A stretch of 64,000 bases of DNA from Deltaproteobacteria bacterium (GTDB lineage: Bacteria > Myxococcota_A > Polyangia > JAAYKL01): NCBI GenBank assembly GCA_016935665.1, contig JAFGQN010000242.1, positions 1 through 64,000 of the forward strand, given 5' to 3'. Both the position numbers and the translations under genes were made by a program. Shown in pieces: positions 2,943 to 15,695 of the stretch (the stretch's first letter is position 1; every line of letters begins with the position of its first letter). The notes beneath the pieces were generated by a model. That model was not told where the DNA came from and did no database searches. It was given only the letters and a program-made list of their open reading frames with translations.

Positions 2943-3085
2943 TGTTAACTGACTTATACGTCCACCTCTGACAAGACCGAGAATTGGTATTTTTTCCATA
3001 ATTTACAAAAAAACACTAATTTTTTGAGTATACGGACCGTTTTTTCATGTGCGATTGAACTTGTGTTAAAAGAAAGGGTTGACCT

Positions 3086-6000
3086 ATGGGGAAAAACACC
3101 AGAGCCATGATATGGCACAGTTTGCAGTTCAGCATCAAAACGCCTTCCTGGATGAGCGGGGAATATCTGACAATTTCAACCAATGTGTTTCAGAATTCGC
3201 CCAACCTGAAAACAGTGCTTTCTTTATTTCTGGGCATCGTTTTTTTACAGGCAGCTTTTATTTCCGGTTGTAAAGAATCGGATAACGTGAACTTGAACGC
3301 CATTTCCAAGTACGAAACCGATGAAACTGAACCGGAGCAAATTAACAATTCCAGCCTAAAAATGGCACGTCCCCTTTACGAACCGTTATCGGTGCTGCTT
3401 GGATGTGACGCCAATAGTCTCACCCCATCGTTTGGTTCCAACTATGGCACATCGCTGGATGGGGGTGAGACATGGCTGGTTATAGAAGGAGATCCCATTA
3501 TTGTGGCGGTTGGCTCCCTTGGCACCATGGCCGCATGGTCCTGTCAACCCGATGGTATTAAGCGTCAGTACTACGACGAGGATGCCTGGGGGACCAACAT
3601 ATGGCTGAACGGCGCGGACACGGGCGCACACTACAGTACTCCGTACTTTAGCAGCGCAAACGAATTTACAGCTGTATCGCATACCTTGACGGACGCCAAT
3701 ACAATCACATCTGTTTACCAGGTTGCCATGGGGGTTCAGCTAACCCAAATAGTTACCCTTGAAACTGGCGACTACTATTACAACATACACTGGGAGCTGG
3801 CCAACTCCAGCGGTTCGGATTTCACAGACGTTCGTTTTTTTCATGGGGGCGACACGTATTTTGGTGGCGACGACTCCGCCCGGTCGTGGTGGAACGCTGA
3901 AAGCCAAATGATTTACGTAAACAATTCGAGCTTCGAAACTTCTGGCGTCATGGGCTTTTTCGGTGGCGGCGCAACCCCAGCGGCGTATTACTTTGGTGGG
4001 AGGTACAATACCGGCAATGACTACGCATCCAGCACTGGCAGACTTCCCAATTCGGCGGATTCCAGCTATGTTGACGCGGGCTACCATCTGGAATGGGATC
4101 GTGCCACCCTGGCAAATGGCGAAACATGGACCATTGAAGCAACTCAAATATGGACAGACCCGGCGTCGCTTCAGGTTGTCCCTCCGGCAGATGGATACGC
4201 TCAGGCGGATCAGACTATGGCGTTGTCCTTTACGGTTCACAACCTGGATGCCGGTAGTTCAGCGACAGTAGACCTGGCAGCGGAATCAACAGATATAGAC
4301 TGGACCGTCTCACTGGATTCTTCAAGTATTACCCTGTCGGCCCTTGAGGCAGCAGATGTTTCAGTGAATGTGACAGTGCCATCCGACGCCGTTGCGGATG
4401 ACATTAGCAGTATTTCACTGGTGGCTTCCGTCGACGGCGCCACAGTGGCGGTTGGAACATCAAAAGTGACCGTCTTTGTACCGGATTACACGATTTCACC
4501 TGAATCTGTGGATTTTGGCTACGTACTGATTGATGAAAGCGACACTATAACGGTAACCATTTCCAACACCGGTTCAAATATGGAAATAGGCACAATAGGT
4601 AACTCTAACCCATTGGCGTCACCATTTGTAACCGCCAATGATACATGTTCAGGCCAGACTCTCGCAAACGGGGAGAACTGTACTCTGGATGTCACATTTT
4701 CTCCAACAGCAGAAGCGGATTTTGCAGATTCGTTTAACATCCCTGTGGTATCTCCCCTTGTGGCCAATCATATCATTGACGTGGCGGGCGTAGGTTCCGT
4801 ACCATTATCTATCGAAAACAGCAGTGAAGATGCTGTTTATCAGAACGGTGATTCCGCAGTGGCTATAGATTCGGCAATTGTGGTTCTGGGGACGGAAAAT
4901 GTGTCGACGGCCAAGGTGACTATCGAAAACCTTCAAACCGGTGATGTACTGGCCTGCACCGAGAGCGATGGGATTACCTGCAGCTACGACAGCGGTACGG
5001 GGATTTTGACCCTGTCTGGAAATGCGACCACCGCAGCCTACCAGACCGTTCTGCGTACGGTTACCTTTTACAACGCAGACACCGGCGCCAGCACCGAAGA
5101 GCGCGTTATTGGATTTGCTGTTGGTAATGCGCTGTATTTCTCGGGCAACGGTCACTTTTACGAAACGAGAAACGTCGGTTCGCCCATTACATGGACAGAC
5201 GCAAAGAATGCGGCCGCGGCCGCAACCTACAATGGGCTGCAGGGATACCTTGCGACGATCACATCGTTAGAAGAAAACGATTTTGTGTATTCGAAAATCA
5301 CCAGTCATACATGGCTGGGCGCCAGCGATGCGGAAAGTGAAGGAGACTGGAAATGGGTGACCGGCCCGGAGAATGGAACGTCGTTCTGGTCGGGCGATTA
5401 CAGCGGCTCCGCAGTGGATGATTTGTTTAATTCCTGGGCTTCTGGCGAACCCAATGATTCCGGCGGTAACGAAGACTATGCCCAGATGTATGGCACTTCG
5501 ACCACCTGGAATGATCTGCCCGATTCCAGCGGCGATATGATGAGCTACGTGGTCGAGTATGGCGGCATGGATGGCGACCCGGTCCTTCAGATTAGTGATA
5601 ATAAAATATTGAGCATTAATGATGCCCCGGTGGTTTCTACATCCGCAAACACCACAGCCACCGAAGACGTGGAATACGCCTATGATGCAGATGTCACCGA
5701 TGCTGATGGCCCATCGGCCACGTGGTCCCTGCTTGTGGCGGACACCTGCGGTGGCGCGATTAATTCCTCTTCCGGCGTCTACACCTTTACCCCTGCCGGC
5801 CCAGTGCCTGCAGATGATTGCGTGCTGTCGATTCAAGTGTGCGATAGTGGAGATCCCGAACTTTGTGGGTCCGAAACAACAACTATCAGCATCACTGCCG
5901 TCAATGATGCGCCGGCGATTTCAACGACAGCCACAACCGAAGCCACTGAAGATGTGGAATATTCTTACGATGCAGATGTGACTGACGACGATGGTCCCGG

Positions 6001-9000
6001 TGTGACATGGTCAGTGGTGAGCGCCACAGATACCTGCGGGGGGGCTATCGATTCCTCAACCGGGGAATATACATTCACACCCACAGGCCCAGTTCCGGAT
6101 GCCAGCTGCGTTATGGCCATCAAAATTTGCGATGGCGGCAGCCCTGAGCTTTGTGATACCGAAACCGCCACCATCACCATCACCGCAGTTAACGACGCGC
6201 CGCAGATTTCAACATCTGCCACAACCGGCGCCACCGAAGCGGTGGAATACACCTACGACGCCAATATGTCCGACGAAGATGGCCCAGGTGTAACCTGGAT
6301 GGTCACCGCCTCAGATACCTGTGGTGGCGTAATTGATTCATCCACCGGCGTTTACACGTTCACCGCGGCAACGCCGGTCCCCGCTGAAAACTGTGTTGTG
6401 GCAATTCAGGTTTGTGACGGGGCAACTCCAAATCTTTGCGATTCCGAGACTGCAACCATCACGATTACCGCTGTAAACGACGCGCCGCAGATTTCAACTT
6501 CTGCCACAACTGAAGCCACTGAAGACGTGGAATACGCCTATGACGCTGACTTCACAGCGAATGATGGTCCTACCGACACCTGGTCGGTGGTCAGTAGCAC
6601 AGATACCTGCGGTGGCCAGATTGATTCTTCAACCGGTGTTTACACGTTCACCCCCTACGGACCTGTTCCCGAGGAGAGCTGTGTGATGGCGATTCAAATA
6701 TGCGACGGGGCCACTTTGGAACTGTGCGATACAGAGACAAAAACCATAAACATCACTCAAGTTAACGATGCACCGGTAATATCAACCACTGCAGGCACAA
6801 GCACATCTGAAGATACGCAATATTCCTATGATGCCAACATAACCGATCCGGACGGCACTGGGGCAACATGGACGGTTACCGGCCTGGACACCTGCAATGG
6901 CATCATTAATGAATCAACCGGCGTCTATACGTTTTCACCAGCAAATCCCGGATACTGCGTTATGGCAATCCAGATTTGCGACGGTGGCACGCCGGATTTA
7001 TGTGATACAGAAACAGCAATAATCAATATTAGCGATGTTAATGAATGCACCGCAGGCATCCATAACTGTGACCCGCTCACTACCTGTACCAATACCATCG
7101 GCGGATTCGTCTGCAGCGCCTGTCCTTCCGGATACACCGACACCAACGGAGACGGCACACAGTGTGATGACATCAATGAATGTACGCTGGGCGCCGATAA
7201 CTGTGATTCGTTGACCACGTGCACAAATACCACTGGCGCCTTCACATGCAGCGCATGTCCCTCAGGATACACCGACACCAATGGCGATGGCACTCTGTGC
7301 GTTGACATCAATGAATGCACTGCACAAACCGATAACTGCGATGATTTGACCACATGCATTAACAATGTCGGCGGCTTCACCTGCAGCGCCTGTCCTTCCG
7401 GGTATGCAGATACCAACAGCGACGGTACTCTGTGCGTTGACATCAATGAATGCTCTCTTGGTACCGACAACTGTGATTCTCTAACAATGTGCACCAATAC
7501 AGCAGGCGGGTTCACCTGCAGCGAGTGTCCCTCCGGATACACCGACACCAATGGCGATGGCACGTTGTGCAATGACATTAATGAATGCACTGCACAACTC
7601 GATAACTGCGATGATTTGACCACATGCATTAACAATGTCGGCGGATTCTTCTGCAGTGCCTGTCCTTCCGGATATGCGGATACCAACAGCGACGGCACTG
7701 AATGTGTGGACATTAATGAATGCACCCTGGGCACTGACAACTGTGATTCGTTAACCACTTGCACCAACACAGCGGGGGGATTCAGCTGCAGCGCATGTCC
7801 GTCAGGTTACACCGATACCAACAGTGATGGCACCCTGTGCACTGACAACAACGAGTGTACCCTCGAAACAGACAATTGTGATCCATTGGTGAACTGTATT
7901 AATACTGCGGGTGGATTTACCTGTGGCGCCTGCCCGTCAGGCTATACCGATGTCAACGATGACGGCACCGAGTGTGTGGACATCGACGAATGCGTATTGG
8001 GAATGGACACCTGTGATGCATTAACCGACTGCACCAATACCGTGGGTGGATACACCTGCAGCGCGTGCCCACCAGGGTTCACCGACACCTTTGACGACGG
8101 CACCGAGTGTATGGACATTGATGAATGCGCGCTGGAAACCCACGACTGCACAGGCCTGACCACCTGCATCAACACAGCCGGCAGCTTTGCCTGCAGCAAT
8201 TGTCCATCGGGATATTTCGATACCAACGGTGATGGCACCCAGTGTGATGACATTGACGAATGCGCCCAGGGCACCGACAACTGCGACCCACTGACAACCT
8301 GCACCAATTCGGAAGGCAGCTTCACCTGTGGCGCCTGCCCGACCGGATACGACGATGTCAATCTTGACGGTACGTATTGTGCAGATATAGACGAATGCGC
8401 GGAAGGCGCCGACAACTGCGACGACCTCACCCCCTGTCGCAACATACGGGGCAGTTTCATCTGTAGCCTCTGCCCGGCCGGTTACACCGATGTCTTTGGC
8501 GATGGCTCCAATTGTTTGGACATTAATGAGTGCAAGCTGGGAACCGACAATTGTGATTCACAGACCACCTGCACCAATACCAAAGGGGGCTTCACCTGCA
8601 GCAGCTGTCCATCGGGATACACCGATGCACGCAATGACGGCACCCATTGCATTGACATAAACGAATGCTGGGGCGACGGTCACGACTGCGACGAGTTGAC
8701 CACCTGCCGCAACACAGCGGGAAGCTTCACCTGCACCGCGTGTCCATCCGGGTACACCGATACCTGGAACGACGGCACTGAGTGCGCTGACATCAATGAA
8801 TGCGCCCTCGGCATTGACAACTGTGATTCGTTGACCACATGCACCAACACAGTAGGCGGCTTCACCTGCAGCAGTTGCCCCGCCGGCTACACCGATACCA
8901 ACGGCGACGGCACCCAGTGCAACGATATCAACGAATGCGAGGCCAACCTTGACAATTGCGACGACCTCACCCCCTGCCACAACACACTGGGCGGATTCAT

Positions 9001-11068
9001 TTGCAGCGTATGTCCCGCCGGTTTCACCGATACAAATGGCGATGGCTCTCAGTGCGATGACATCGATGAATGCACCCTCGGTACCGACAACTGTGATGCG
9101 CTGACCAACTGTCTCAATACAGAGGGCGGCTTCACCTGCAGCGCCTGTCCTTCAGGATACACCGATACCAACAGCGATGGCACAAGATGCGAAGATATCG
9201 ATGAATGTCAACTTGGTGCTGACAACTGTGATTCCCTTACCACCTGTGCCAATATAGCCGGCAGCTTCACCTGTGGTGCGTGCCCGTCCGGGTACACTGA
9301 CATCTACGGCGACGGGACCCAATGCGAAGATATCGATGAATGCGCGGCCGGAACCGACAACTGTGATTACCTGAACCCCTGCAACAATACACCCGGGGGC
9401 TTTACCTGCAGCGCGTGTCCTTCCGGGTATACCGATGTTTACGGCGACGGGACCCAGTGCGATGACATGAATGAATGTGTGCTGGGCGCTGACAATTGTG
9501 ATGCATTGACCTCCTGCGTCAATACAGAAGGCAGCTTCACCTGCAGCGCCTGTCCGTACGGGTATACCGACATTCACGGCGATGGCACCCAATGCGTTGA
9601 TATCAATGAATGCGAAACCGACGCCCACGACTGCGACGAACTGACCTCATGCAGCAACACTGCGGGAAGCTTCACCTGCAGCGCCTGTCCGGCCGGATAC
9701 ACCGATACCAACGATGACGGCAGTCAGTGTATCGACATTGATGAATGCACCCTGGGAACTGACAATTGCGATTCATTGACCACATGCACCAATACAGCAG
9801 GCGGATTCATCTGCAGTGCCTGTCCATCCGGATACACGGACACCTACGGCGATGGCACCCGGTGTGACGATATTAACGAATGCACAGGTGTGGCCTCTTC
9901 GAATTGTGGCGTGGGCAATGGCGGCGCCTGTATGAACCTTGGTGGAACGTTTTTATGCACGGAATGCCCCAATGGGTATGCCCTTGCGGACGACAGAATG
10001 TCCTGCGTGGAAATTGATGAATGCCTGCTGAATATGGATGCCTGCGATGAAAACGCGACATGCGAAAACACAGATGGCAGTTACATCTGCACTTGCAACA
10101 AGGGCGCCAGCGGAGATGGATTCAGCTGCACTGCAACTGAGTTCGCCGGGCTGCCAGAAGATGGCGCGGCAGTTCAGGGACAAAATTTGCCGGTATCTGG
10201 CATTGGCGAACCGGGGACTCTGGTGACGGTTGCGGTAGATGGCAAAGTGGGATGTACGGCAACGGTAAATGCCTCGGGCAACTGGGAGTGTAGTGTGGCC
10301 GGGCTCAGTGACGGCACCCATACAATTGCTGTTGAAGGCCCAAATGAAGCCGGAGAAGAGGTAACGGTTTGGGTGGACAACACCACTTCGGTGAGCAGCG
10401 CGACTCCTGCAGGCGGTAGCAGCACATTCAAGGAATCTCCCTCTGAGATAACGGGGACAGGCGAGGCTGGTGCGAGCATCGTGGCAACAATTGACGGCGT
10501 AGCGGTTTGCACCACAGTTGTAGATGCGTCGGGCAATTGGATATGCGATATTGGTCTGTCAATGGCCGGCGGCGCCCATGATATCGCCATCATTGCAACA
10601 GATGAAGCGGGCAATGAGGATACGTCTGCTTTCACATGGATCGTGGACAATACCACCACCGGCGACATCAACAAAGTTTCAGTAAACACCAATTCCCCAA
10701 CAACCGTGCTGGATGGCACTGGGGAACCAGGCGCCACCGTTACAGTAGCAGTGGATGGAACACAGTACACCACCACGGTGGATGAAACAGGACACTGGAC
10801 TGTTGAAGTGCCTACCCCGACAGAAGCCGGCGAACACTATGTTGATGTGTTAATCACAGACGCCGCAGGCAACACAAAGACTGCCAGCGAGACCTTTGAA
10901 GTGGAGGAACCGATAGATAAGACATCGATTGAAGAGTCGAGCAATTCGGTTTCAGGTGGTGTCAGCTGTTCGGTAAACGGCGCCCCCACTGGATCTAATG
11001 AAGGTGTCATTATGATATTGTTGTTGCTTGCAGGCTTATCTCTTCTTAAAAAGGGGGTAAAAAAATGA
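3086..11068 (+). CDS. Giant EGF/lectin/cadherin-like surface lipoprotein
   Basis: The 2660-residue protein starts at ATG 3086 after an AGAAAGGG site. An unusually long N-terminal region precedes a hydrophobic segment with lipobox FLQAAFISGC (Cys62). Domains in order: a beta-rich region (about 90-370); an alpha-galactosidase-NEW3-like region; a choice-of-anchor-D/HYDIN-like domain (about 470-570); a C-type-lectin fold (about 682-829, with LGA, WxxGEPN and WND motifs); five cadherin-like repeats starting INDAP (842-1316); 23 EGF-CA modules (1317 to about 2350); three bacterial Ig-like domains; and a C-terminal Cys, hydrophobic helix and KKGVKK tail like a MYXO-CTERM-type sorting signal. Ca-dependent adhesion at the cell surface is the likely role. 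The next gene overlaps by 4 bases. Confidence 0.85.
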   Translation: MGKNTRAMIWHSLQFSIKTPSWMSGEYLTISTNVFQNSPNLKTVLSLFLGIVFLQAAFISGCKESDNVNLNAISKYETDETEPEQINNSSLKMARPLYEPLSVLLGCDANSLTPSFGSNYGTSLDGGETWLVIEGDPIIVAVGSLGTMAAWSCQPDGIKRQYYDEDAWGTNIWLNGADTGAHYSTPYFSSANEFTAVSHTLTDANTITSVYQVAMGVQLTQIVTLETGDYYYNIHWELANSSGSDFTDVRFFHGGDTYFGGDDSARSWWNAESQMIYVNNSSFETSGVMGFFGGGATPAAYYFGGRYNTGNDYASSTGRLPNSADSSYVDAGYHLEWDRATLANGETWTIEATQIWTDPASLQVVPPADGYAQADQTMALSFTVHNLDAGSSATVDLAAESTDIDWTVSLDSSSITLSALEAADVSVNVTVPSDAVADDISSISLVASVDGATVAVGTSKVTVFVPDYTISPESVDFGYVLIDESDTITVTISNTGSNMEIGTIGNSNPLASPFVTANDTCSGQTLANGENCTLDVTFSPTAEADFADSFNIPVVSPLVANHIIDVAGVGSVPLSIENSSEDAVYQNGDSAVAIDSAIVVLGTENVSTAKVTIENLQTGDVLACTESDGITCSYDSGTGILTLSGNATTAAYQTVLRTVTFYNADTGASTEERVIGFAVGNALYFSGNGHFYETRNVGSPITWTDAKNAAAAATYNGLQGYLATITSLEENDFVYSKITSHTWLGASDAESEGDWKWVTGPENGTSFWSGDYSGSAVDDLFNSWASGEPNDSGGNEDYAQMYGTSTTWNDLPDSSGDMMSYVVEYGGMDGDPVLQISDNKILSINDAPVVSTSANTTATEDVEYAYDADVTDADGPSATWSLLVADTCGGAINSSSGVYTFTPAGPVPADDCVLSIQVCDSGDPELCGSETTTISITAVNDAPAISTTATTEATEDVEYSYDADVTDDDGPGVTWSVVSATDTCGGAIDSSTGEYTFTPTGPVPDASCVMAIKICDGGSPELCDTETATITITAVNDAPQISTSATTGATEAVEYTYDANMSDEDGPGVTWMVTASDTCGGVIDSSTGVYTFTAATPVPAENCVVAIQVCDGATPNLCDSETATITITAVNDAPQISTSATTEATEDVEYAYDADFTANDGPTDTWSVVSSTDTCGGQIDSSTGVYTFTPYGPVPEESCVMAIQICDGATLELCDTETKTINITQVNDAPVISTTAGTSTSEDTQYSYDANITDPDGTGATWTVTGLDTCNGIINESTGVYTFSPANPGYCVMAIQICDGGTPDLCDTETAIINISDVNECTAGIHNCDPLTTCTNTIGGFVCSACPSGYTDTNGDGTQCDDINECTLGADNCDSLTTCTNTTGAFTCSACPSGYTDTNGDGTLCVDINECTAQTDNCDDLTTCINNVGGFTCSACPSGYADTNSDGTLCVDINECSLGTDNCDSLTMCTNTAGGFTCSECPSGYTDTNGDGTLCNDINECTAQLDNCDDLTTCINNVGGFFCSACPSGYADTNSDGTECVDINECTLGTDNCDSLTTCTNTAGGFSCSACPSGYTDTNSDGTLCTDNNECTLETDNCDPLVNCINTAGGFTCGACPSGYTDVNDDGTECVDIDECVLGMDTCDALTDCTNTVGGYTCSACPPGFTDTFDDGTECMDIDECALETHDCTGLTTCINTAGSFACSNCPSGYFDTNGDGTQCDDIDECAQGTDNCDPLTTCTNSEGSFTCGACPTGYDDVNLDGTYCADIDECAEGADNCDDLTPCRNIRGSFICSLCPAGYTDVFGDGSNCLDINECKLGTDNCDSQTTCTNTKGGFTCSSCPSGYTDARNDGTHCIDINECWGDGHDCDELTTCRNTAGSFTCTACPSGYTDTWNDGTECADINECALGIDNCDSLTTCTNTVGGFTCSSCPAGYTDTNGDGTQCNDINECEANLDNCDDLTPCHNTLGGFICSVCPAGFTDTNGDGSQCDDIDECTLGTDNCDALTNCLNTEGGFTCSACPSGYTDTNSDGTRCEDIDECQLGADNCDSLTTCANIAGSFTCGACPSGYTDIYGDGTQCEDIDECAAGTDNCDYLNPCNNTPGGFTCSACPSGYTDVYGDGTQCDDMNECVLGADNCDALTSCVNTEGSFTCSACPYGYTDIHGDGTQCVDINECETDAHDCDELTSCSNTAGSFTCSACPAGYTDTNDDGSQCIDIDECTLGTDNCDSLTTCTNTAGGFICSACPSGYTDTYGDGTRCDDINECTGVASSNCGVGNGGACMNLGGTFLCTECPNGYALADDRMSCVEIDECLLNMDACDENATCENTDGSYICTCNKGASGDGFSCTATEFAGLPEDGAAVQGQNLPVSGIGEPGTLVTVAVDGKVGCTATVNASGNWECSVAGLSDGTHTIAVEGPNEAGEEVTVWVDNTTSVSSATPAGGSSTFKESPSEITGTGEAGASIVATIDGVAVCTTVVDASGNWICDIGLSMAGGAHDIAIIATDEAGNEDTSAFTWIVDNTTTGDINKVSVNTNSPTTVLDGTGEPGATVTVAVDGTQYTTTVDETGHWTVEVPTPTEAGEHYVDVLITDAAGNTKTASETFEVEEPIDKTSIEESSNSVSGGVSCSVNGAPTGSNEGVIMILLLLAGLSLLKKGVKK
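7034..9868 (+). repeat. 21 in-frame 135-bp EGF-coding repeats
   Basis: Twenty-one consecutive modules are each exactly 45 codons long, from the GAT at 7034 to the base before the GAT at 9869. Two divergent modules follow. Each module starts D-I-(N/D)-E-C, has six cysteines, and ends with a D-x-N-x-D-G-(T/S)-x-C loop. The spacing between Cys4 and Cys5 is CxxC rather than the textbook CxC; the last module (23) has the ordinary CxC. Constant length with diverged DNA sequence suggests old duplications kept by selection. Confidence 0.95.
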
Positions 11069-12810
11069 AACAGCCTGTCGAATCAAATATGAAACAGCCC
11101 TTTGTCCGAATAGCGCTCTGGATTCTATTGGCGGGTCTTTTCCCTGCACCGGCGTTCAGTCAGGATATGGCGATAAACACCCAGTCTTTTAAACCGTCTC
11201 CATTCATGAACGATTTGTACGAAGTTGAACAGGCCGAAATGATGGCGGACTGGTATCGATGGAACGGAGGGCTGTATCTCAACTACCAGAACGATCCGCT
11301 GATTCTAAAAAACAACAACAGTGGCGTTGTGCGAAAGGTTGTGGCACATCAGCTGACCGCCGATGTTCTGTTGGCTTTTAAACTGACTGACTGGATCAAT
11401 ATCGGGATGGCGATTCCCGTGCATTTGTATAAAAAAGGAGAGGGATTCACCGCGAACGATATGCCCGAAAAATTCAGCTTTGGAGATGTGAGGCTTCACA
11501 CCAAATTTCGGGTATTCAGATCTGCGTCTGAGAGATTGACTCTGGCTATTGCGCCTGTGGTCGGCTTTCCTGTGGGAAAAAGCACTGACAGTTTCTCCGG
11601 CGCCGAGGGGATGACTTTTTTGCCCCGGGTGCTGCTGGATGTTTCCTTTAACAGAGTTGACCTGTCAATCAATGGCGGCTATCGCTTCAATGATAACGTT
11701 AAAGGCGGTGGCATTGAAATCAGCGATGAGCTAAATTTAGCCGTTGGCGGTTTGTTCCGGATACTGCCCGAAAAGTTAAGCGCCATCGCGGAGCTAACTG
11801 CGTCGGCAAAAGCAAAAGATCCCTTTTCGGCCATGGCGGAGACCCCAATCGAAGCCAGAGGCGGTGTCCGCTGGTTTGCAAAAAAATGGCTGCACTTCAA
11901 CCTGGGTGCGGGAATGGGCCTGACCGCAGGATACGGCATTCCCGATTATCGTATTTTTGCAGGGGCCAAGGCGGCCATGCCGGAAGAAAAACCTGTCTGT
12001 ACCGCAGCGCAGCCACCAATTGAGGAAGCGCCTGCAGACACTGACAACGACAGCATTCTCGACGATGTGGACCAATGTCCCAATGAACCGGAAGACATTG
12101 ATGCCTTCGAAGACGACGATGGCTGCCCCGATGACGACAATGACGGGGATGGCATACCGGACGACAAAGACAAATGTCCAGCAAAAGCCGAAGATCATGA
12201 CGGCTTCGAAGACGACGATGGCTGCCCCGATGACGACAATGACGGGGATGGCATACCGGACAACAAAGACGAATGTGCTCTGGAAGTTGAAGACGTGGAC
12301 GGCTTTGAAGACACCGATGGATGTCCGGATCCCGACAACGACGGAGATGGCATCGCTGATAATGTCGATAAGTGCCCCAATGAAGCCGAAGTTGTGAACG
12401 GCGAGAAAGATGACGATGGTTGCCCGGATGAAGCTCTCAAGGTTGAAAAAGGCGCAAAGATAGACCTTGCGGGCAAGATATATTTTGTGTACGACAAACC
12501 GGAAATTCAAGCAACAAGCTTTGGCGTTCTCGACAATGTTGTCTTAACATTGAAAAACCATCCTGAAATACTAAAGCTTCGCATCGAAGGCCACACCGAC
12601 ACCCATGGGGGCAACTGGCACAATGAGCTGCTATCAAAGGAGCGCGCCAAAGCAGTTCGAAACTATCTCATCGAGAAAGGCATCGAAAAAGAACGGCTTC
12701 AGACATGGGGATACGGGGAAACCAGACCGCTGGTAAAAGACGAAAAATCCGAAGAAGACAAGGAACGAAACAGAAGGGTCGAGTTTGTTATCGTAGAAAT
12801 AGCCCCCTGA
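11065..12810 (+). CDS. OmpA-family protein with thrombospondin type 3 repeats
   Basis: The 581-residue protein should link outer membrane and peptidoglycan. Its ATG overlaps the stop of the giant gene (ATGA), so the two are translationally coupled; a second in-frame ATG lies eight codons on. A signal peptide (WILLAGLFPAPAFS) precedes a beta-barrel-like region to about residue 320. Residues about 326-458 hold Asp-rich TSP3-type Ca loops (DxDNDGDGIxD with paired Cys). The C-terminal OmpA domain (about 470-581) contains the GHTD motif, LSKERAKAVRNYL and the NRRVEF arginines that bind diaminopimelate in this family. It probably works with the upstream Ca-binding protein. Confidence in the family is high; the partnership is inference from coupling. 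Confidence 0.92.
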   Translation: MKQPVESNMKQPFVRIALWILLAGLFPAPAFSQDMAINTQSFKPSPFMNDLYEVEQAEMMADWYRWNGGLYLNYQNDPLILKNNNSGVVRKVVAHQLTADVLLAFKLTDWINIGMAIPVHLYKKGEGFTANDMPEKFSFGDVRLHTKFRVFRSASERLTLAIAPVVGFPVGKSTDSFSGAEGMTFLPRVLLDVSFNRVDLSINGGYRFNDNVKGGGIEISDELNLAVGGLFRILPEKLSAIAELTASAKAKDPFSAMAETPIEARGGVRWFAKKWLHFNLGAGMGLTAGYGIPDYRIFAGAKAAMPEEKPVCTAAQPPIEEAPADTDNDSILDDVDQCPNEPEDIDAFEDDDGCPDDDNDGDGIPDDKDKCPAKAEDHDGFEDDDGCPDDDNDGDGIPDNKDECALEVEDVDGFEDTDGCPDPDNDGDGIADNVDKCPNEAEVVNGEKDDDGCPDEALKVEKGAKIDLAGKIYFVYDKPEIQATSFGVLDNVVLTLKNHPEILKLRIEGHTDTHGGNWHNELLSKERAKAVRNYLIEKGIEKERLQTWGYGETRPLVKDEKSEEDKERNRRVEFVIVEIAP

Positions 12811-13821: not shown

Positions 13822-15231
13822 CTAAACCTGAAAAATGGTTTGGGCGTCTTTATCCCAGTTGTCAAAAAGAAATGCCTCGTGCCTGTTGTCGGCAATCAGC
13901 CTTAGGGCAAAGCGCACCTGGTGCTCGTACAGTTCGCAAAAGGCGCCGGGCGCATCCATTCCACCGTTCATTTCGTGGGCTTCCGCCGGACACGGAGATC
14001 CACAGAAGTGGCGCAGAGCGCAGGTGTTGCATGGAGTGATAGTGTCCACATTGCGCTCGCTCACCATTTTAAATGGAGCACTCTTCAATACATCGTCGAT
14101 GTCGTCTGCAAACAGATTTCCGCCCCGAAAATGGGGCAGTCCGATGAACTCGCTGCAGGGAAACAAATCGCCATTGGGAGCCACCGCAAAGAAGCAGCGG
14201 CCGCCGCCACAGGGTGAAATGTCACACATTAATCGACGCGCCGCAGGTGCAATGATGCCCAGCAGAATGTTGGCAAAGTTAGCGACCACCAGTTTTCGCC
14301 CAGTTTTTTCATACAACTCAACACTTTTTTCCAGCGCACTGAGGTAGTACGTGGAGAGCTCGTGATCGGCCGGCTTAACCTCTCTCGCCCCTGGCAGCGT
14401 GCAGCGTACGGGATTGAGCATGCAGGTTTCAACGTTCATTTGGTGCAGCAGTTCCACTATCTGGGGAAGAACATGCATATTCTTCGTGGTGGCCGTACAA
14501 ATCACGTTGAATCGCTCATACCCGTTGAGCTTTTCAATTGCCCAAAGCACTTTGTCGTGAACGCCACCCTCGTTGGACCAGCTCTTGCGCGTCTCGTCCG
14601 TTATCGATGCCTCGTGACCGTCCAGTGACAAACCGATTCCCACCTTGTGGTCGCGCAAAAAGGAAATGGCACTGTCGTCAAGCAGCGTGGCGTTGGTTTG
14701 AATACCAAAACTAAAATCGTTTCCAAACGCCTCAATCCCTTTAAACACCGCTTCCCTGTTGAGCATTGGTTCTGCCCCGTGAAAAATAACCTGAGGGCGT
14801 CTGCCTGCGGGAACGTATTGTCCAAGATACGTGCGTAGCCGGTCCAGGGCGTCCAGCAGCTGTTTAGTGCCCATGTGCGCGCCGCTGCGTCGCATATCTG
14901 TTGGAATGTAGCAGTAACTGCAATTGAGATTACACCGTTCGGTGGGATTGAAATACACCGCCGACGGAGTCAGACCAAAGCGCAGAGTCTCCATCTCTTT
15001 GGCAAAGGTCCTTTGTTTGTCCCTGTACTCCAGCATCAGTGAGCTGCCGTTGGAAAGCACATTGGCCAGTTGATCTTTTTTTACCAATGACCAGAACGCG
15101 GTGTCCGCCGCGAGCAGTCCCATGTACGTATCGTGACCAATATCCACGGGGACAAACGACGGTCCATTGCCGCTGTTGGCCATTTGCCCCCGGGATGACG
15201 CAGCGGTTTTTCTATTGGCAGACTCGCTCAT
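13822..15231 (-). CDS. Radical SAM/SPASM peptide maturase (CbpB-like)
   Basis: The 469-residue enzyme carries the radical SAM motif CNLNCSYC (Cys100, 104, 107), which binds a 4Fe-4S cluster and SAM. A C-terminal SPASM-type region holds nine cysteines (336, 341, 346, 359, 401, 404, 410, 414, 432), as in enzymes that modify ribosomal peptides with auxiliary clusters. Its ATG overlaps the stop of a 51-codon peptide gene (ATGA). A cobalamin riboswitch lies further upstream. The likely job is post-translational modification of that peptide. I recall a described peptide/rSAM pair named CbpA/CbpB that fits, but cannot verify it here. The reaction (for example thioether or C-C crosslink) cannot be told from sequence. 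No transporter or protease gene is adjacent. Confidence 0.88.
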   Translation of the reverse strand: MSESANRKTAASSRGQMANSGNGPSFVPVDIGHDTYMGLLAADTAFWSLVKKDQLANVLSNGSSLMLEYRDKQRTFAKEMETLRFGLTPSAVYFNPTERCNLNCSYCYIPTDMRRSGAHMGTKQLLDALDRLRTYLGQYVPAGRRPQVIFHGAEPMLNREAVFKGIEAFGNDFSFGIQTNATLLDDSAISFLRDHKVGIGLSLDGHEASITDETRKSWSNEGGVHDKVLWAIEKLNGYERFNVICTATTKNMHVLPQIVELLHQMNVETCMLNPVRCTLPGAREVKPADHELSTYYLSALEKSVELYEKTGRKLVVANFANILLGIIAPAARRLMCDISPCGGGRCFFAVAPNGDLFPCSEFIGLPHFRGGNLFADDIDDVLKSAPFKMVSERNVDTITPCNTCALRHFCGSPCPAEAHEMNGGMDAPGAFCELYEHQVRFALRLIADNRHEAFLFDNWDKDAQTIFQV

Positions 15232-15383
15232 CTGTCCTCTGTTTCGGTCAGAATGTAATGGGACAATCCGGTACCACTGGCATCGCAGCTTTTGCGAAAA
15301 GCGATAACATCGGGTGTATTCTCTTTGGGAAGGTCAAGGTCACTGGTCTGCTGACGTGTCTGTTCCTGGGATGTAGCGGTCAT
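15228..15383 (-). CDS. Small RiPP precursor peptide (CbpA-like)
   Basis: A 51-residue peptide starts at the ATG at 15383. AAAGGAG at 15393-15399 (minus strand) lies nine bases before the start. Its TGA overlaps the ATG of the radical SAM gene. The N-terminal half is polar (Gln, Thr, Asp, Glu), as expected of a leader. The C-terminal part reads VIAFRKSCDASGTGLSHYIL and then a short acidic tail. A single Cys, the Gly/Ser/Thr stretch and a Tyr are candidate modification sites. There is no signal peptide or double-Gly cleavage motif. From memory the FRKSCDxxGTGLSHYIL block matches CbpA-type peptides. Overlap with the maturase and RBS quality make it very likely a real gene. Confidence 0.85.
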   Translation of the reverse strand: MTATSQEQTRQQTSDLDLPKENTPDVIAFRKSCDASGTGLSHYILTETEDR

Positions 15384-15421
15384 ATCATCAATCTCCTTTG
15401 GTGCTGTAAAACCGCTGGAGT

Positions 15422-15458
15422 GGGTTTGACAGCACGCATTGCGTTTTTGTCAAAACCC
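15422..15458 (-). promoter_or_regulatory. Hairpin between riboswitch and peptide gene
   Basis: On the minus strand GGGTTTTGACA and TGTCAAACCC can pair (about 10 bp, one bulge) around a 16-base loop. It lies between the aptamer and the ribosome binding site. No U-run follows, so it may be part of an expression platform acting on translation or processing instead of a simple intrinsic terminator. The mechanism is inferred. Confidence 0.45.
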
Positions 15459-15484
15459 TTTACCGTCAGGTCTGATGGATTACT

Positions 15485-15642
15485 GTTTCAGCACGTCTTC
15501 TGGCTTTCGGGTCAACCGAGGTGTCGCGCCTTCCCAACAGAAAGTTTCCCGTCAGTGGCTGGCCATTGGCCCTGCAGTCCTCGTTACCGATTACAGCGGT
15601 GGGTCCGCCACGGATTTTCACCGTGTTCCGTATTGCTGAAAC
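15485..15642 (-). promoter_or_regulatory. Cobalamin (vitamin B12) riboswitch
   Basis: Read on the minus strand, the element opens and closes with a perfect 9-bp P1 stem (GTTTCAGCA at 15642-15634 with TGCTGAAAC at 15493-15485). In order it shows GGTGAAAATCC (15622-15612), the CACCGCTGTAAT core, GCCACTG (15559-15553), GGGAAGGC (15535-15528) and a B12-box-like AAAGCCAGAAGACGTGCTG (15507-15489). These are the conserved blocks of cobalamin aptamers. It should bind adenosyl- or related cobalamin and control the downstream peptide and radical SAM genes. In most bacteria B12 riboswitches repress on binding. Confidence 0.92.
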
Positions 15643-15666
15643 TGTCGTTTCAATAATGTGAGGAAT

Positions 15667-15695
15667 TTTCTACGGAAAAAAAACCGCAAGGTCAA
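15667..15695 (-). promoter_or_regulatory. Probable sigma-70 promoter for the riboswitch operon
   Basis: On the minus strand TTGACC (15695-15690) and TAGAAA (15672-15667) are separated by exactly 17 bases. Transcription would start around 15660, shortly before the P1 stem of the riboswitch. Hexamer matches are 5/6 and 4/6. Confidence 0.6.

Follow-up and report, generated by a model that had tools for sequence, protein, structure and literature searches.

What is a gene for a 51-residue peptide, followed by one for a radical SAM/SPASM enzyme, doing behind a cobalamin riboswitch? Such a locus is found in the window, i.e. the whole stretch of 64,000 nucleotides analysed here. The original prediction described it as a RiPP system that may be made when B12 is scarce, with a product that perhaps captures cobalt or cobalamin or acts as a signal.

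The cbpAB locus of the window

The features of the locus are listed in Table 1. The peptide gene, said in the original prediction to have 51 codons and a strong ribosome binding site, carries AAAGGAG about 9 nt 5' of its ATG. Its stop codon overlaps the start of the radical SAM/SPASM gene in an ATGA, also as predicted. The TIGR04163 match of the enzyme covers residues 28-455 on profile positions 3-428. Profile searches of peptide and enzyme thus place both partners above the curated NCBIfam cut-offs, 35 bits for TIGR04164 and 375 bits for TIGR04163, and the CbpA/CbpB pair named in the prediction was confirmed.

Table 1. Features of the cbpAB locus (positions in the window)
Feature	Position	Strand	Evidence or content
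cbpB, radical SAM/SPASM peptide maturase, 469 residues	13822..15231	-	TIGR04163, 679.5 bits; PF04055 (Radical_SAM) and PF13186 (SPASM); AlphaFold pLDDT 90
cbpA, 51-residue precursor peptide MTATSQEQTRQQTSDLDLPKENTPDVIAFRKSCDASGTGLSHYILTETEDR	15228..15383	-	TIGR04164, 43.9 bits (cut-off 35)
CbpA conserved core, residues 26-45 VIAFRKSCDASGTGLSHYIL, single Cys33	15249..15308	-	TIGR04164 match; conservation over 80 loci
Leader, aptamer to cbpA	15384..15472	-	Strong hairpin without T-run, CUCC, then AAAGGAG ribosome-binding site
Cobalamin riboswitch aptamer (RF00174), full length	15473..15655	-	cmscan 85.3 bits, E 1.3e-19, model 1-189

The pair is an already catalogued NCBIfam family and hence not categorically new. 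TIGR04164 (CbpA, cobo_pep) and TIGR04163 (CbpB, rSAM_cobopep) describe the same gene order as in the window, with no difference at the family level. With NCBI models for both partners, family-level novelty, which the prediction itself called uncertain, is lower than hoped. To judge from the short names cobo_pep and rSAM_cobopep, the curators had noticed a link to cobalamin. In the open-access literature searched, we found no paper that names cobopep, TIGR04163 or TIGR04164 or describes the pair, and none on CbpB in connection with radical SAM and RiPP or on a cobalamin-linked radical SAM peptide. What is new here is how widely the pair is associated with B12, and the proposal drawn from this; the family itself is known.

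The B12 aptamer that had been read from the sequence matches the whole RF00174 model and exceeds its gathering score of 31.5 bits. Judged by its family, it is a predicted cobalamin-binding, expression-repressing element. The region 15360-15480 folds with -32.3 kcal/mol (z -2.49), and no terminator-like site was found on the minus strand of the leader. Because the hairpin lacks a T-run and a CUCC lies upstream of the GGAG, the leader is more likely to act on translation, as a probable translational expression platform. The promoter hexamers of the prediction were not confirmed; a consensus scan gave no site beside the aptamer, and sites in the region were not more numerous than in shuffled sequences.

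Conservation and genomic context of cbpAB

A TIGR04163 search of the window's phylum found paralogues in 335 of 379 genomes, with only the window's own genome (1/379) above cut-off. This rarity indicates that cbpAB is optional for B12 metabolism. A copy on a plasmid of Methylovirgula sp. HY1 (L039), annotated as cbpA/cbpB by NCBI, is 60% identical to that in the window. Using a two-sequence alignment as query, 80 further loci were drawn from GTDB genomes. Their enzymes, spread over about 15 phyla, are 56-66% identical to the window CbpB. On a maximum-likelihood tree of 82 sequences, the phylum label must change at least 32 times; the minimum possible is 14, and shuffles give 50.6. The patchy distribution fits repeated transfer, although mis-binned contigs and losses can add changes. 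Carriage by viruses was rejected, as radical SAM genes on 47 viral contigs are merely 18-35% identical.

The original prediction would have been refuted if the aptamer had given no covariance-model match, or if peptide homologues had been missing next to related enzymes; neither is the case. CbpA adjoins CbpB in 82 of 82 loci; in one of these (L103), cbpA ends approximately 400 bases ahead of cbpB. The motif RKxCxxxGxGLSHY (R-x-x-C-x3-G-x-G-L-S-H-Y/F) is nearly invariant among them. Counted from the cysteine, R(-3), C(0), G(+4), G(+6), L(+7) and H(+9) are invariant in the 80 CbpA sequences aligned by script, S(+8) differs once, position +10 is Y or F, and position +5 is T, V, A or I. In L092 and L102, R[KR]xC is replaced by RQRC. 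The motif is absent from 76 control loci (596 kb) harboring other radical SAM genes.

In 60 of the 80 loci (52/70 scored via genomes and 8/10 others), a cobalamin riboswitch precedes the pair on the same strand at a distance of up to 1 kb; riboswitch density would predict 0.03 of 70 by chance. Thirteen of the 20 loci without a riboswitch (L053, L065, L066, L068, L072, L075, L077, L078, L087, L096, L106, L108 and L118) sit inside B12 operons and therefore need no switch of their own. Two more, L067 and L076, are cut by contig ends. For five complete loci (L045, L088, L093, L094 and L119), as well as the Methylovirgula plasmid locus, no riboswitch was detected and no B12 neighbour recognised. 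Of the five, four were searched with E up to 1, and L119 at the gathering score, and no cobalamin-like RNA was found.

The neighbors point to no single step of the pathway: cobalt genes stand in the ring operons, and CobT, BluB or CobU elsewhere. Eight corrin-ring operons have an identified gene downstream of cbpB, and in each of them it encodes a cobalt chelatase, CbiX (L068, L106, L108, L118) or CbiK (L078), or the cobalt importer CbiM (L053, L072, L096). The next gene is CobT in L055, L074 and L084, and, as judged from the BluB coordinates, BluB in L092 and L102. In the window, cbpAB stands alone next to its riboswitch. In L065 and L087, late B12 genes and a BtuF/BtuC-like importer are encoded in the same operon as cbpAB. 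These two related loci (L065:2055-6064 and L087:2277-6372) also hold asparagine-synthase-like, diphthine-ammonia-ligase-like and second small radical SAM genes around cbpAB, within this corrinoid salvage and uptake operon.

Predicted modification of CbpA

CbpB has the radical SAM motif CxxxCxxC (C100/C104/C107) and a seven-cysteine SPASM pattern, C341-x12-G-x4-C359 followed by C401-x2-C404-x5-C410-x3-C414-x17-C432. The radical SAM and the seven SPASM cysteines are invariant across 60-61 aligned sequences. By profile and fold, the nearest solved structures are CteB (5WGG/5WHY), whose entries stem from a study of thioether formation, and then the anaerobic sulfatase maturase anSME. PapB is the next NCBIfam match after TIGR04163. 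The SCIFF maturase CteB and the PapB-type ranthipeptide maturases share with CbpB the SPASM fold and the full set of auxiliary-cluster cysteines, yet the fold alignment of CteB and CbpB has only about 20% identity. By analogy with these enzymes, a single cysteine thioether is probably the likeliest modification of CbpA by CbpB.

CbpA itself belongs to neither of the corresponding peptide classes. SCIFF peptides have six cysteines in about 45 residues, whereas CbpA has one conserved cysteine. PapA-type ranthipeptides are defined by Cys-x3-Asp/Glu, which CbpA lacks; position +4 from its sole invariant cysteine is Gly in 80 of 80 aligned sequences.

A parallel in size and distribution is offered by the precursors of PQQ and mycofactocin, which are short and strongly conserved, are paired with a radical SAM/SPASM enzyme and are spread across phyla. 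CbpA has all of these properties. The cbpAB loci differ in that no PqqD-, protease- or oxidase-like partner recurs; B12 genes are found instead. The parallel raises the possibility that CbpA is consumed to yield a small cofactor or a cobamide lower ligand, as PqqA is to yield PQQ. Its core is as fixed as that of a cofactor precursor, and in five loci cbpB is followed by CobT or BluB. Still, position +10 may be Tyr or Phe and position +5 varies, and BluB is above cut-off in 11 of 71 cbpAB genomes, so the pair is no simple replacement of lower-ligand synthesis. This coexistence also led us to reject a strict replacement of DMB synthesis by cbpAB. We consider a disposable CbpA highly improbable.

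Methanobactin and other metal-linked RiPPs are modified ribosomal peptides tied to one metal or nutrient regulon, which is also what we predict for CbpA. Their maturation enzymes are different ones, and cbpAB has no recurring exporter or uptake genes, in keeping with the intracellular role proposed below. The analogy nevertheless suggests that the CbpA product could be exported as a cobalophore, a corrinoid-capturing peptide or a signal, and re-enter the cell via TonB receptors. BtuB-like receptors are found close to a few loci. In the Humidesulfovibrio clade (L049:11525-14856 and L076:1745-3796) a gene for an HlyD-type protein follows cbpB, and L076 also encodes an ABC transporter ATPase; these genes are possibly a clade-specific exporter. 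Across the loci, however, we found no dedicated exporter or leader protease recurring beside cbpAB, and we saw no secretion signal in CbpA. Unlike capturing or signalling peptides, its core is near-invariant across phyla. Export is accordingly very unlikely in our opinion. Of the original prediction, the riboswitch, the precursor peptide and the SPASM maturase were right, as was the link to B12 scarcity, which 80 loci now support; the exported capturer or signal fares less well.

Possible role in corrinoid and cobalt handling

CbiC is absent from 20 of 71 cbpAB genomes, the window's included. Four of these 20 are probably incomplete bins, as CobJ is above cut-off in them. The window's genome, which is 95% complete, is among 16 of the 71 that have neither CbiC nor CobJ above cut-off, some others of which may be incomplete. 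Since these apparent corrin auxotrophs still keep cbpAB, the pair is unlikely to serve ring building alone, and we favour a function shared by synthesis and salvage. The window's genome keeps CobS and a riboswitch-led cluster encoding a TonB receptor, CobT, CobS, a CobQ-like protein, an aminotransferase and CbiB. With these genes, and with neither CbiC nor CobJ above cut-off, its organism looks like a corrinoid salvager.

The same genomes bear on a cobalt-specific function, in which modified CbpA, as a chelator or metallochaperone of cobalt, would supply the early-insertion chelatases CbiX/CbiK or act together with CbiM. Gene order favours this reading, with a cobalt chelatase or importer next in all eight corrin-ring operons described above. 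It is weakened by the apparent auxotrophs, which seemingly have no ring to metallate and keep cbpAB all the same. Most of them retain a CbiM-type importer, possibly one for nickel, and a CobN-type gene is present in the window's genome, so cobalt could still be handled in such cells. We regard a function confined to cobalt as rather unlikely.

The product of CbpA could also take over a B12-dependent function in cells short of B12, in the manner of MetE or the class III ribonucleotide reductase. The window's genome has cobalamin riboswitches before nrdD and before a unit ending in a MetE-like gene (named by eye). Genes within the B12 biosynthesis and uptake operons of many phyla should, however, serve supply and not replacement, and no partner enzyme recurs adjoining cbpAB. 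Substitution therefore seems quite unlikely to us.

Based on these observations, we suggest that cbpAB is a B12-repressed RiPP-type module whose peptide handles corrinoid or cobalt in B12 supply; we give this reading a probability of roughly 0.55. In brief, when cobalamin is scarce the riboswitch would permit translation of cbpA and the overlapping cbpB, as the leader and the family of the aptamer suggest. CbpB, resembling CteB, PapB and anSME, would then abstract a hydrogen from CbpA and most likely close one thioether, from the only invariant cysteine to a residue of the invariant GxGLSHY. The shortest CbpA has 29 residues, which leaves little room for a leader, and the modified peptide, with almost no leader, would probably be cytosolic. 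A near-invariant core across phyla and no recurring exporter or protease fit an intracellular role with one fixed target. Judged by the position of the genes, modified CbpA probably binds, carries or activates a corrinoid or its cobalt as B12 is made, salvaged and loaded.

Taken one step further, crosslinked CbpA may serve in B12 metabolism as a peptide cofactor or carrier, ribosomally made and horizontally spread, that loads cobalt or corrinoids in producers and auxotrophs alike. We put this forward tentatively, at somewhat below even odds. RiPPs have mostly been studied as antibiotics, signals, metal scavengers and redox cofactors, and we know of no RiPP that fills a cofactor or carrier role in B12 metabolism. 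If correct, this tiny, almost invariant modified peptide, tied to B12 operons in about 15 phyla, would add a ribosomal product to a pathway held to be fully mapped. It could account for some of the delivery of cobalt or corrinoids, for example in the early cobalt-insertion pathway, where the known metallochaperone is not used. One peptide of 29-51 residues, one enzyme and one riboswitch make a short and defined target for study.

Several other riboswitches are found in the window's genome (G000). On contig C183 (L169), with riboswitches at 5474-5706 and 7956-8140 on the minus strand, a CobN/magnesium-chelatase-type gene comes after a second ORF of 720 residues, receptor-like by eye, downstream of a riboswitch; this genome lacks CbiC. 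On contig C128 (L170), the riboswitch at 5291-5495 (minus strand) lies directly before the gene of the class III (anaerobic) ribonucleotide reductase, the B12-independent isozyme (ORF 3023-5278, minus strand). On contig C158 (L168), two riboswitches (6822-7005 and 5514-5708, minus strand) flank a MerR-type regulator, and acetolactate-synthase-like and MetE-like ORFs, named by eye, are located downstream. In the window itself, the plus strand at 3086-11068 encodes a protein of 2660 residues that has EGF-like repeats in a long array and a hydrophobic anchor at its C-terminus; the next gene, at 11065-12810, encodes an OmpA-like protein.
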